From: Candidatus Methanoperedens sp.
GTDB taxonomy: Archaea; Halobacteriota; Methanosarcinia; Methanosarcinales; Methanoperedenaceae
DNA: 64,000 bases
NCBI GenBank assembly: GCA_023249105.1
Contig: JAHFDG010000013.1
Coordinates: 1-64,000, forward strand
Reading direction: 5' to 3'
The notes beneath the pieces are model-generated. The model was not told the origin of the DNA. It saw nothing but the letters and a program-made list of their open reading frames with translations, and did not search any database. Every line of letters begins with the position of its first letter. The first letter of the stretch is position 1. Shown here piece after piece: positions 19,036 through 61,204 of this stretch. A program made the position numbers and the translations under genes.

Positions 19036-20034
19036 TTAAGGTCTTGCTATATATATCCCATCCACTACCCTTTCCATTCTCACATACACCTCTGCACCAA
19101 CAGGAATCTTCTCGGCATCCACGATAGTTAATACCCTGTCCCGTGCAACAGCAAGCTTCTCATCCTTCATCCAGCCCGGCCCTACAACTTTCACCTTTAC
19201 TCTTTCATACCTTTTGAACACGCGCGGTAAGGGTTTGCACTCATAACTTCCGAAATCCTGCGGCGTGAGAACAAGCTTCGTATTATAAATTTTTTCCCAC
19301 TCCCTGAGCCTGGAATAGAAGTTCTCCCAGTCCATTGCCCTGATATCCGGCTTCCTCCCGTATTTATGTGGCAGGAACTTCTGTATTCCGAGCGCAGGCC
19401 ATTTTTTTCCTGCGCCTATCGAAAGCGCAAACTCGATTAATTTTGGAATCTGGGCATCATTAATACCGGGCAGCCACACCGGCGCGATAAGAAGGTCGAT
19501 ATTTGTATTTTTGGTTATATATTCAGCGCTTTTTAGAACTTTTCCCAGATCGTATGAATCTGTCCCCGCAATCCTTTTCGCAAGGCCGGGATCGAGGGAT
19601 TCGATGGACATATTGATGCGTGAAAGCCCGGCTTTATCAAGCGCATCGATGAGTCCGGTATTGAGCATAGTGCCGTTTGTCTGCATGGATACCGTTCTGA
19701 CATGGCTGTTTGCAGACAACCCCTCAACGAGTTGAACAAGCTCAGGGTACAGCGCAGGTTCCCCGACCGTATCGATATGCGCCTCGATATCGTTTATTTC
19801 CTTGTACGATACTGCCCATTCGAACGCTGCAAGCAATTGCGTAAGGTCAACCATATACTCGGAGCCCCGGCGGCTGGAGTGGGGGCCAGCATCGGTTGAG
19901 CAGAAGATGCAGGATAAAGGACACTCGCTATAGGGACGAAGCTGCAATACATTCGTTCCGCGGTCGATGATACCGAATGCGATGCAGCCGAAAAGAGGAA
20001 TGTCGCGGATGAGGATATGATTACATTTTGCCAT
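19036..20034 (-). CDS. Radical SAM protein with C-terminal TRAM domain
   Basis: Protein of 332 aa. The radical SAM cluster motif is C38-x3-C42-x2-C45 (SECPLSCIFC). The family barrel follows, with DTVGEPALYPEL and VSMQTNGTML. The last ~50 residues (PGWMKDEKLAVARDRVLTIV to the end) look like a TRAM RNA-binding domain, suggesting an RNA substrate. The family is archaeal and uncharacterised; it lacks the N-terminal domain of methylthiotransferases. It overlaps the upstream glycosylase gene by 14 nt. Confidence 0.8.
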   Translation of the reverse strand: MAKCNHILIRDIPLFGCIAFGIIDRGTNVLQLRPYSECPLSCIFCSTDAGPHSSRRGSEYMVDLTQLLAAFEWAVSYKEINDIEAHIDTVGEPALYPELVQLVEGLSANSHVRTVSMQTNGTMLNTGLIDALDKAGLSRINMSIESLDPGLAKRIAGTDSYDLGKVLKSAEYITKNTNIDLLIAPVWLPGINDAQIPKLIEFALSIGAGKKWPALGIQKFLPHKYGRKPDIRAMDWENFYSRLREWEKIYNTKLVLTPQDFGSYECKPLPRVFKRYERVKVKVVGPGWMKDEKLAVARDRVLTIVDAEKIPVGAEVYVRMERVVDGIYIARP

Positions 20035-20626
20035 TTTCTACCAATACACACTCCCCACAGCGTTTCTTCCCGCAGAACTGCTTCCCGTATTCAACTATGA
20101 GGGCATGGAATTCCTTATACAGGGGAACATCCATGGGCAGCGAACTCTCAAAAACCGATTGCAGTTCCCCGTAATCGCCTTCAACCCCAAGACATTTGCA
20201 TATCCTCTTCGTATATGCGTCAATGACGAAGCTGGGTTTGTCAGCCGCGTATAAAACGATGCTGTCAGCGGTCTCCTGCCCTATGCCATTGAGAGAAAGA
20301 AGTATCTCCCGAAGTTCAGCGCCCTGTTTTTCAAGTATATCTGGATTTTCTGAAAAAAACCCAGAGATATTCTTGAGCCTGTTTGCCTTCTGCCTGTAAA
20401 AACCGGTGCATCTTACCAGCGTTTCCAGCTCTTCAATACCGGCCTTTGAGAGAGGTTCCGGTTCCATCAATCCGCGCTCTTTTAAGTTTCGTATCGCCCG
20501 TTCCACATTCTCCCATTTGGTCTGCTGGGTCAGGACTGCTCCTACCACAACCTCAAAAGGAGTATCGGCAGGCCACCATTGCTGGTGCCCGAACTGGTTC
20601 AGGAGCTTTTTGTATATATCCATCAT
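20021..20626 (-). CDS. HhH-GPD DNA glycosylase, endonuclease III-like
   Basis: Protein of 201 aa of the endonuclease III-like group. EVVVGAVLTQQTKWENVERA and the helix-hairpin-helix LNGIGQETADSI are present. The catalytic Asp is retained in FVIDAYTKRI. The Lys used for beta-lyase activity in endonuclease III (GxGRKTA) is replaced (GIGQETA), so a monofunctional glycosylase of the MagIII/Mig type is more likely. The C-terminus has C-x4-C-x2-C but ends before a fourth cluster Cys. The base lesion is unknown. Confidence 0.82.
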   Translation of the reverse strand: MMDIYKKLLNQFGHQQWWPADTPFEVVVGAVLTQQTKWENVERAIRNLKERGLMEPEPLSKAGIEELETLVRCTGFYRQKANRLKNISGFFSENPDILEKQGAELREILLSLNGIGQETADSIVLYAADKPSFVIDAYTKRICKCLGVEGDYGELQSVFESSLPMDVPLYKEFHALIVEYGKQFCGKKRCGECVLVENGKM

Positions 20627-20806
20627 AAAGGGTTACGCCCCTTTATGACGTATAGGGGATGTGAAACATCCCCTTCTCGAGTCACGCCTGTCTTCGACAT
20701 GCTTCGCAAACGGGAGGGCGTGTCCGGGTATGGCGCGCCATACCCGTCGTTTGAAAAGCGACACCTCGCTTTATGCGGTATCCACGTATGCCTGTGGGCA
20801 TACGTG
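20624..20806. repeat. Cluster of hairpins and palindrome (dispersed repeat, copy 1)
   Basis: Four dyads lie in this intergenic stretch: CATAAAGGG/CCCTTTATG (20624-20647); AGGGGATGT-GAA-ACATCCCCT (20654-20674); a perfect 22-bp palindrome at 20725-20746 centred on GGCGCGCC; and CACGTATGCC-TGTG-GGCATACGTG (20783-20806). Between the last two, 20759-20779 is the exact reverse complement of 44359-44379. The block separates npdG from the glycosylase gene. No coding sequence is credible here. Confidence 0.8.
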
Positions 20807-20858
20807 TCTGCGAAGTAAAGCGGCGCAACGGTTTTTGATAAAAATTTCTTAAAGTTTT

Positions 20859-21515
20859 TCATACAAACTTTACGCCAAGGTTAGAAAGCCCGTTGCGGAG
20901 CGCAAGATTAATCAAAAAAGGGGTGAGGGACTCTATCATATACGAAGATGCAAGACCTCCGCCATCAAGAGGCCGAAGTGATTTGATTTCCCTTGTCAGT
21001 TCCATCACCGTTCTTTTTGCCCTGTCATCATCGCCGCAAACCACGACATCATAATCAAGACTCAATTCAAGAGCTGCTAATTTCTTCGCAGAAACATTAT
21101 GGTATGCCGAGACTACTTTTACGGTTTCAGGGAGAATCTCCTGTATCTCAAGCGCTGCGCTTCCCTGTTTTGGCGGAGTGTATTCAAACCATTTGTTCTT
21201 TTTCATGGGAACTACAAGCGAAATAACAATCTGGTCCCTGAAATAAGGCCTGAGGTCTTTCAAAAGAGTGACCACACCCCGATACGGCACCGAAAGCACA
21301 ACAACATCCGCATCGTTGATTGCGGTTTCGTTCTTGCATCCTGTTATGCCGCAGCAAAAAAACCCTTTATTCAAAAGCGCTTCTGTATATTTTCCCGCAG
21401 AACTGACTGCTTTATCTATCTCTCGCGAGCATAATAAGATTTCATGTTTCTCAGCCCACCTGAGTGCAAATCCTTCCCCGATGCTGCCCGTGCCTCCCAG
21501 TATCGCTATTTTCAT
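20859..21515 (-). CDS. npdG: F420-dependent NADP+ oxidoreductase
   Basis: Protein of 218 aa that transfers hydride between F420H2 and NADP+. The N-terminal Rossmann motif IAILGGTGSIGEG, DVVVLSVPYRG and VSAYHNVSA are characteristic of NpdG/Fno. Its presence supports an F420-using archaeon. It overlaps the upstream glycosyltransferase by 4 nt (ATGA) and is therefore coupled to it. Confidence 0.92.
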   Translation of the reverse strand: MKIAILGGTGSIGEGFALRWAEKHEILLCSREIDKAVSSAGKYTEALLNKGFFCCGITGCKNETAINDADVVVLSVPYRGVVTLLKDLRPYFRDQIVISLVVPMKKNKWFEYTPPKQGSAALEIQEILPETVKVVSAYHNVSAKKLAALELSLDYDVVVCGDDDRAKRTVMELTREIKSLRPLDGGGLASSYMIESLTPFLINLALRNGLSNLGVKFV

Positions 21516-44310: not shown

Positions 44311-44379
44311 GTGATAAACCCTGGTTTATCACGACAGGTATGCGAAGCATACCTGAACACCGCATAAAGCGAGGTGTCG
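44311..44379. repeat. Hairpin-rich dispersed repeat, copy 2
   Basis: Two hairpins, GTGATAAACC/GGTTTATCAC (44311-44332) and CAGGTATGC-GAA-GCATACCTG (44335-44355), precede a 21-bp segment (44359-44379) that is the exact reverse complement of 20759-20779. The segment ends 4 nt before the lysS start and contains GAGGTG (44371-44376), the only Shine-Dalgarno-like sequence for that gene. Confidence 0.8.
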
Positions 44380-44383
44380 GTTT

Positions 44384-45889
44384 ATGGACGAAACAATACA
44401 CTGGGCAGATGTTATAGCAGAAAATGTACTTGCACGGGGAAAAAAGCATACCGTAGCCTCAGGCATCACACCCTCAGGCCCAATCCACATTGGAAATATG
44501 AGAGAAGTGGTGACGGCAGATGCGGTTTACAGGGCGCTTTCGGATAAGGGCGCAGATGTGCGGCTTATCTATATCGGGGACACACTTGATCCGCTACGTA
44601 AAGTATATCCTTTCCTGTCAAAAGACTACGAAGCCCATGTGGGAAAGCCGCTGTCTGAAATCCCATGCCCTTGCGGCGGCCATAAGAGTTATTCAGAACA
44701 TTTCCTTCTCCCTTTCATTGATGCGCTGCACACCCTGGGCATCAAGCCTCAGGTTTACAGGGCTAATGAACTCTATAAAGAGGGAAAGTACGTTGAAGCA
44801 ATAAAAAAAGCCCTGCTCAACAGGGATGCCATAGCCCGAATCCTCTCCGAAGTTTCAGGGCGGGAACTTGAACCCGGATGGAGCCCGTTCAATCCCATAT
44901 GCAATGAATGCGGGCGCCTGAGCACGACAAAAGTGAAGGGATTTGATACTGAAAAGGAGACAGTCGATTACGTCTGTAAATGCGGCTCTCATGGCACTGT
45001 ATCCATGAAAGGCGGGGGCAAGCTCAACTGGCGCGTTGACTGGCCCGCGCGGTGGCCCATTTTCGGCACCACAGTTGAGCCGTTCGGCAAAGACCATGCC
45101 ACGGCAGGCGGTTCTTACGATACGGGAAAGCGGATTGCTCGTGAAATATACGATTACGAGCCGCCGTACCCGATAGTGTATGAGTGGATAATGCTAAAAG
45201 GCAAAGGCGCCATGCACTCATCCACGGGTCTTGCGATATCGATAAATGAGATGCTTGAGATAGTGCCGCCAGAGGTCCTGCGCTACCTGATTATAAGGCA
45301 GAAGCCTGAAAAACATATTGAATTCGACCCTGGGCTTGCTTTCCTCAACCTTATTGATGAGTACGACCAGGTGGAAGGGGACAAAAGGGCATACCAGCTT
45401 TCGAGGACTGAAGGCACGGAACCTTCCAAGATTCCCTTCAGGCACATGGTGACGGCGGTGCAGATCGCAGATGAGCGGGGTTTTGATTACCTGCTTACTG
45501 TTTTGAAGCGTACTGATTACGATACGTCAGACGTTGCCGCGATAAGGCAGAGGGCGAACAATGCAAGGAACTGGCTTCTTAAATATGCGCCCGAATTTGT
45601 GAAATTCAAAGTCCAGGAAGCGATTCCACCACAGGTAAAGAGTTTCACAAAAGAACAGAAACTTGCGCTTGCTATACTGGCCGATGAACTGGAGCAGGGC
45701 ATGTCAGGGCAGGAAATCCATGATAATATGTATAAGGTGGCGGAGGAGGCTGGACTTGACGGGAAGAAGGTTTTCGAGACTGTGTATCAGGCGCTTCTGG
45801 GGCTGAAATCAGGACCGCGGGCGGGGCATTTCCTAGCGTCGCTTGATAAGGATTTTGTGGTGAAGAGGTTTAAAGAGGCGAGTGCATAG
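44384..45889 (+). CDS. lysS: Class I lysyl-tRNA synthetase
   Basis: Protein of 501 aa, the class I LysRS of many archaea. The HIGH motif is GPIHIGN near 30-36. The KMSKS-like site is AMHSSTG near 275. CPCGGH and CNECGR form zinc-binding sites. Translation probably starts at ATG 44384, with GAGGTG donated by the repeat. Confidence 0.94.
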
Positions 45890-60808: not shown

Positions 60809-60875
60809 ACTATACACTTATTATTCTTTTCATCTTTAAATGTTATTTGATGCGTAAAAATTTGAGTGAGGAGAG

Positions 60876-61204
60876 TAAGCCCCTTTATGTTTAGCGCAAG
60901 GAGCGAGTGCCCCTGTAGCGCTTATGCAGCATTCAGCTATGCGCCGTACTCGGACAGGTCTGGACTGCCCTTTATGCCCTATTTCGGCTTGCACCCGCGT
61001 GGATTCGCCGTTCCATCCGCATGCACATGACCTCATTCTTACAAAATCATCGCATTTCTGCGCAGCGGTATCGTTTCTGTTCCAGAGCCAGGATTCTCAC
61101 CCTATGCCCTTAACAAGCATCCGCGGTCCAGAAGGTGAGGGGACTTTCCTCAGCGTTGCCGCCGGAAGCCGCCCTTCCTCTCTCGCATCCTTATTTCGCC
61201 TGTC
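60876..61204 (-). ncRNA. rnpB: RNase P RNA, archaeal type A-like
   Basis: The minus strand carries the conserved RNase P elements in order. CR-I is GAGGAAAGTCC near 61144-61154. ACAGAAACGATACCGC (61065-61080) is the conserved P9-P10/11 region. GGTGCAAGCCGAAATAGGG is near 60976-60994. GGGGCTTAC (near 60876-60884) is close to the 3' end. The intervening segments form complementary helices. It processes pre-tRNA 5' ends. Boundaries are approximate, from the outer complementarity. Short open frames on either strand here are false. Confidence 0.88.

Follow-up and report, generated by a model that had tools for sequence, protein, structure and literature searches.

BIMEs are mosaic combinations of palindromic units, whereas mitochondrial byp elements and the bypass of T4 gene 60 involve inserts that ribosomes skip unread. 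Bacterial and archaeal MITEs are short, non-coding-looking, multicopy and mobile, and are flanked by a short target duplication. The element that we describe here has all of these MITE traits, consists like REP/BIME of mosaic palindromic units in many copies, and resembles the byp elements and gene 60 in that the insert would be neutralized at the level of translation. It also recalls the Rickettsia palindromic elements (RPE), which an excerpted account presents as dispersed palindromes of ~100-150 bp with an open frame that are tolerated in a coding context (PMC10969869). At its ends, it has the -4 nt geometry of termination-reinitiation coupling at ATGA overlaps and fits the distance rule of that coupling, as given in excerpts of Huber et al. 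2019 and 2023 (PMC6728339, PMC10666635); in the latter study, reinitiation is almost lost in both Haloferax volcanii and E. coli when stop and start lie ~20 nt apart (PMC10666635).

The element lies in a window of 64,000 nucleotides (the whole stretch of DNA analyzed) from Candidatus Methanoperedens sp. A sequence-only reading of this DNA had reported a hairpin cluster at 20624-20806. The cluster is real, every listed dyad was found in the sequence, and the 21-bp segment CGACACCTCGCTTTATGCGGT at 20759-20779 is the reverse complement of 44359-44379. Both strands fold far beyond 200 dinucleotide shuffles (z scores of -6.2 and -7.3, with 0/200 shuffles equal). The span was nevertheless drawn too narrowly, since the unit extends over 20623-20862, and the four dyads are modules of this one longer mosaic unit rather than separate elements. 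The main feature had been overlooked, namely a stop-free frame tied by ATGA overlaps to both neighboring genes (Table 1). On the minus strand, the 3′ end of npdG reads ...GTATGA, and its ATGA opens the frame of a mini-ORF that terminates at TTATGATGG, where the TGA overlaps the nth ATG. An Rfam scan of the window matched RNase P RNA alone, leaving the hairpin element without an Rfam match; the archaeal RNase P RNA lies at window positions 60864-61184 on the minus strand and is a full-length match to RF00373 (195.6 bits).

Table 1. Coordinates of the element, its modules and its neighbors in the window
Feature	Positions	Strand	Remarks
Downstream gene nth, endonuclease III-like	20021-20626	-	PF00730
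Mini-ORF, 79 codons, MKNFKKFLSK...LYVIKGRNPL*	20623-20862	-	Stop-free through all hairpins
Second ATGA	20623-20626	-	Mini-ORF stop TGA / nth start ATG
Dyad CATAAAGGG/CCCTTTATG	20624-20647		
Terminal E1 hairpin CATAAAGGGGCGTAACCCTTTATG	20624-20647	-	nth start codon inside stem
Inserted element body between both ATGA copies	20627-20858	-	Basis: unfilled npdG-nth junctions in 24/29 relatives' loci
GAA-loop hairpin AGGGGATGT-GAA-ACATCCCCT	20654-20674		
Perfect palindrome, 22 bp	20725-20746		
Internal E2-type module CATAAAGCGAGGTGTCGCTTT	20755-20779	-	Common to 44359-44379
TGTG-loop hairpin CACGTATGCC-TGTG-GGCATACGTG	20783-20806		
Start (S) module ATGAAAAACTTTAAGAAATTTTTATCAAA, including first ATG	20834-20862	-	One mismatch vs family pattern
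First ATGA	20859-20862	-	npdG stop TGA / mini-ORF start ATG
Upstream gene npdG-like, F420-dependent NADP oxidoreductase	20859-21515	-	PF03807
Partial second copy, hairpin + E2 module	44333-44383	+	GAGGTG 7 nt before ATG; directly 5′ of ORF 44384-45889

The partial second copy differs from the first in its surroundings. Its start reads ATGG, and no bridging ORF is read there. The ORF that follows is presumably a class I lysyl-tRNA synthetase, and both the GAGGTG and the start-codon hairpin of this gene are apparently supplied by the element copy.

The sequence-only reading had proposed a modular hairpin repeat family, REP-like or MITE, that should have further copies in the genome. Such copies exist: a 214-bp query matched 56 places in the 3.28 Mb (134 contigs) of its own genome. 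Different parts of the query matched at different genomic places, indicating that the repeat is a mosaic. The multicopy, modular and MITE-like mobile character of the proposal therefore stands, but not its picture of a plain extragenic REP-like repeat. The recurrent layout is a start module, formed by the hairpin AAAACTTT..AAAGTTTT and then ATCAAA, followed by at least one middle hairpin and by an end hairpin, CATAAAG...CTTTATG, whose closing ATG serves as start codon for the following gene. The 214-bp query was matched in 24/24 genomes of the genus, compared to 0/16 genomes from other families of the order. In a class-wide sample, the start-module pattern matched in 5/9 genus genomes, with single matches in 3/140 others that do not exceed the reversed-control rate; the pattern is frequent only within the genus Candidatus Methanoperedens. 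Among 31 genomes of the genus, 7 carry 19-39 start modules each and the other 24 carry 0-9. An exact end-module scan of viral contigs gave 0 matches. In twenty pairs, the two units share at least 85% identity despite unrelated flanks, for instance L003/L004 (266 nt, 96%), indicating that whole mosaics move.

Several arrangements depart from a single unit between two genes. Tandem pairs of complete units joined at ATGA, in the order gene, mini-ORF, mini-ORF, gene, occur in L289, L290 and L037. In L295, a minimal version consists of the start hairpin alone, and its 8-codon mini-ORF (MKNFRKVL*) ends on the gene's ATG. Locus L131 (300-1478, 1475-1861) holds an antisense copy inside the N-terminal coding part of an aminotransferase-like gene, which we take to be histidinol-phosphate aminotransferase-like, and a 128-codon mini-ORF that opens at GTGA and closes with ...HRIKRGIAL*/ATGA, upstream of a nucleotide kinase-like gene. 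Intergenic copies recur in two contexts, ACGAACT-unit-ACGAACT and ATCYGTG-unit-ATCYGTG, that are themselves repeats (L008, L034, L069, L073, L075, L100, L102, L105, L113 and L067, L112, L142, L182, L184); the length of copies within them is mostly 0 mod 3.

Comparison of filled and empty sites defines the insertion. Among 29 relatives' loci with the npdG-nth junction (L218 was dropped because it has no nth), 4 are filled, 24 lack the element and mostly show a plain ATGA overlap, and 1 has other hairpins. The filled junctions belong to G000, G015, G022 and G041 and hold four different mosaics. The remaining locus (L210, in G023) carries a different hairpin set, so this ATGA joint has been hit by more than one repeat family. 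At a second junction, 4 of 28 loci are filled, 21 are unfilled and 3 have an end-type hairpin only. In two of the loci at this junction (L336 and L338), only the end-type hairpin is inserted, and the upstream protein reads through it (...VIKRGAAL* and ...VISRGSAL*) and terminates at the ATGA that begins the following gene. The end hairpin itself may be an independent unit, mobile or convergent. Further filled and empty pairs were found elsewhere, the closest being L027 and L050 with flanks 93% and 90% identical. Filled sites have two RTGA/NTGA where empty sites have one, which is the target-site duplication expected of a MITE, and the left and right copies have at least 4 nt in common in 58/59 units. 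The two start copies can differ by one letter yet stay start codons: L259 has TTGA on the left and ATGA on the right with TTGA in the empty relative, and L313/L315 have GTGA on the left and ATGA on the right with ATGA at the empty sites. According to Pfam naming of 10 + 10 + 10 neighbor genes, from which the gene names used here derive, the junctions with insertions include rpoA1-rpoA2, rpl32e-rpl19e (L32e-L19e), rpl30-rpl15 (L30-L15), RNase P p30-Pop5/Rpp14, dapA-dapB and npdG-nth. Such pairs are essential or stoichiometric, and loss of coupling should hurt.

To follow the frame across copies, we collected all matches to the start module in G000, G041 and G022, three genomes that are metagenome assemblies and whose element copies are related to one another. 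The 110 listed matches comprised 108 distinct start modules, with one match each in G000 and G041 not counted as separate: 68 were preceded by NTGA, 9 followed a non-NTGA start-like triplet, and 31 had no start codon and lay elsewhere. Two of the 68 NTGA copies ran off the contig, leaving 66 to be assessed. In 47/66, the mini-ORF stop fell exactly within the NTGA start of an ORF with 50 codons or more (or of one open to the locus edge), with 38 distinct downstream genes behind these 47 copies; in another 7/66, the stop was a TAA located 6 nt upstream of the terminal ATG. These joints, at -4 nt and +6 nt, have the geometry of termination-reinitiation, that is, a 4-nt overlap or a distance within about 10 nt. 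The other 12/66 did neither; one of them (L289) is followed by a second unit in tandem, and several are decayed or of another subfamily. L038 and L039 carry a conserved version, 1 nt short, in which the stop falls 16 nt upstream of the following ATG; L025 probably belongs here too. At the upstream joint, the distance was between -15 and +12 nt in 50/66 copies, while 16/66 had no upstream ORF by the criteria used. Of 100 start-to-end units that form a second set, 58 had ATG on both sides; 50 of these 58 ended exactly on the overlap, and 4 more at +6 nt. Filled and empty sites together show insertion at an NTGA start, and the sequences show a frame kept open between the two NTGA copies.

An insert of 77-400 nt should uncouple a gene pair under the ~20-nt distance rule, in the form excerpted from PMC10666635, unless ribosomes translate the insert as far as the following start codon. 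The geometry of the mini-ORF meets this need, and from the distance rule we infer that ribosomes use it. We consider it likely that the unit is a mosaic, palindromic, MITE-like element that colonizes NTGA/RTGA start codons and has a readable frame crossed by ribosomes that reinitiate. The target is an NTGA (mostly ATGA) at a gene start, very often one already overlapping the stop of the preceding gene. As the filled and empty sites show, insertion leaves one NTGA on each side of the element, and the mRNA would read in the order gene, mini-ORF, gene with -4 nt overlaps at both joints. By the archaeal distance rule for termination-reinitiation, a ribosome finishing the upstream gene would reinitiate on the mini-ORF and melt the hairpins, and by the same rule it would stop at the second ATGA and reinitiate on the downstream gene. 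In this way, the element could sit between essential genes without cutting translation.

The end hairpins may add a further layer. Their folding energies are -13.4 and -14.8 kcal/mol, and in the predicted fold the downstream AUG is paired in a 9-10 bp stem. The E2 loop displays a Shine-Dalgarno-like GAGGTG 7 nt before the AUG, while the E1 end module has no clear Shine-Dalgarno. As judged from the fold, an end module that adds a GAGGTG loop and hides the AUG should make entry dependent on an arriving ribosome. These features also suit a domesticated translational regulator, i.e., a cassette kept for host benefit whose SD-loop/AUG-stem hairpin and mini-ORF would adjust or gate the downstream gene. 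Loop letters are less variable where a start codon follows, letters 3 and 4 showing changes in 8/94 and 5/94 terminal copies compared to 29/110 and 19/110 others, and the lone end-type hairpins before starts (L336 and L338) are consistent with such a role as well. We nonetheless regard it as unlikely, since occupancy of the same junction is patchy among species, the mosaics differ and copies also lie at useless places; a selfish, tolerated insert would account for all this too.

As for the enzyme that moves the mosaic, start-codon-targeting element, the candidates compared were Y1 transposases. The element could be a non-autonomous member of the IS200/IS605 type (Y1 HUH), with single-strand hairpin ends, insertion 3′ of NTGA and a right-end ATGA borne by the element itself. 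Subterminal hairpins are present at both ends, the target resembles a tetranucleotide, and L259 shows the pattern of left and right copies that this origin would leave. The own genome has 5 Y1 transposase matches, yet the ends of these five loci, compared by eye, do not resemble those of the element. Across the 31 genus genomes, Y1 presence did not correlate with copy number: no Y1 match accompanies the 37 start modules of G015, and the 32 of G022 coexist with one short, broken Y1 fragment. L313/L315, moreover, fit a duplication of ATGA followed by a change of ATG to GTG on the left. An IS200/IS605 origin is accordingly quite improbable in our assessment. The resident Y1 transposases look unlikely as movers, given that ends differ and copy numbers do not follow. 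The ends of the element are two different hairpins, and comparison with the five Y1 loci revealed no terminal inverted repeats in common with a resident autonomous transposon; no mobilizing enzyme was found among these candidates.

The frame itself speaks to whether the copies are, as the first reading implied, plain extragenic repeats of the REP/BIME or MITE kind, with a frame that is open by accident. Their high copy number, palindromes, mosaic build and partly intergenic location would all suit such repeats. However, in the 48 units bounded by ATG at both ends, the sense frame was open in 41/48 (7 stops in 2557 codons), compared to 1/48 and 2/48 for the other two sense frames (110 and 109 stops). 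Frame-compatible lengths were likewise found in 42/48 start units but in only 4/32 non-start units; this comparison omits 20 of the 100 units, which are of other kinds, and its Fisher p of 1e-11 is indicative only because the copies are not independent. In addition, two subfamilies read the start module in two frames, ATG-AAAAAC and ATGA-AAAAAC, which differ by one A, and the middle or total length offsets this difference so that both reach the final TGA (e.g., L011/L056, 93% identical). With one sense frame alone open, lengths matched to start sites and both start-module frames compensated, an accidental frame seems very improbable. A role of the mini-ORFs in encoding small functional proteins is scarcely credible despite open frames of up to 130 codons, as two frames are used to read the start module, changes show no third-position excess (51/30/24 at codon positions 1/2/3 of the end module and 30/34/28 in the start module, counts that the hairpins confound) and none of the 4 tested mini-ORFs had a Pfam match at E<=1. 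Judging from these patterns, the selected feature seems to be the open frame with its hairpins rather than the peptide.

If the reading of a start-codon-colonizing element crossed by reinitiating ribosomes is right, selfish or regulatory DNA enters tightly coupled operons through the very ATGA overlap by which archaeal and bacterial genes are translationally coupled. The same gene pairs, present across species in dozens of versions with or without the insert, would then provide a natural experiment in which reinitiation, hairpins and Shine-Dalgarno placement can be set against archaeal protein ratios. Dozens of the small “hypothetical proteins” that gene finders would predict in these genomes would in fact be repeat elements. 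More tentatively, we raise the possibility of a novel class of mobile DNA, neutralized at the ribosome and not in RNA like introns or in protein like inteins: it would copy into start codons, double them and, through an open hairpin frame, hand the ribosome on at both ends. If true, even essential operons with fixed stoichiometry, rpoA1-rpoA2 and those of ribosomal protein genes among them, are open to such a ribosome-neutralized element. In the open-licence literature, we found no description of such an element; the Methanoperedens repeat literature found there concerns Borg tandem repeats, as far as the excerpted text goes (PMC9879509).

Set against the known systems, the element departs from each at a different point. 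RPE fuse in frame into existing proteins, whereas the element is a separate mini-ORF between two genes that both begins and ends on duplicated start codons; its sites are start codons or intergenic, and the sole in-gene copy is antisense (L131). REP/BIME are extragenic, whereas here the reading frame is locked to both neighbors, with a 4-nt overlap with both genes in the window copy and with the upstream gene in 27/66 copies; a dedicated RAYT (Y1) transposase also has no match in G015 and only a broken fragment in G022. The ends are not those of a resident TnpA element as in IS200/IS605, by eye and at five loci of one genome. Unlike MITEs, the element has no parent transposase with matching ends among the Y1 compared, takes a start codon as its target and has a bridged frame. 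The coupling described in the excerpts of Huber et al. links two host genes, while here a mobile insert would exploit coupling at both of its own ends. Unlike the byp elements and gene 60, the insert would be read through and left by reinitiation. Its start-codon targeting and frame bridging match no family tested. The element is best filed with the dispersed palindromic, MITE-like elements.
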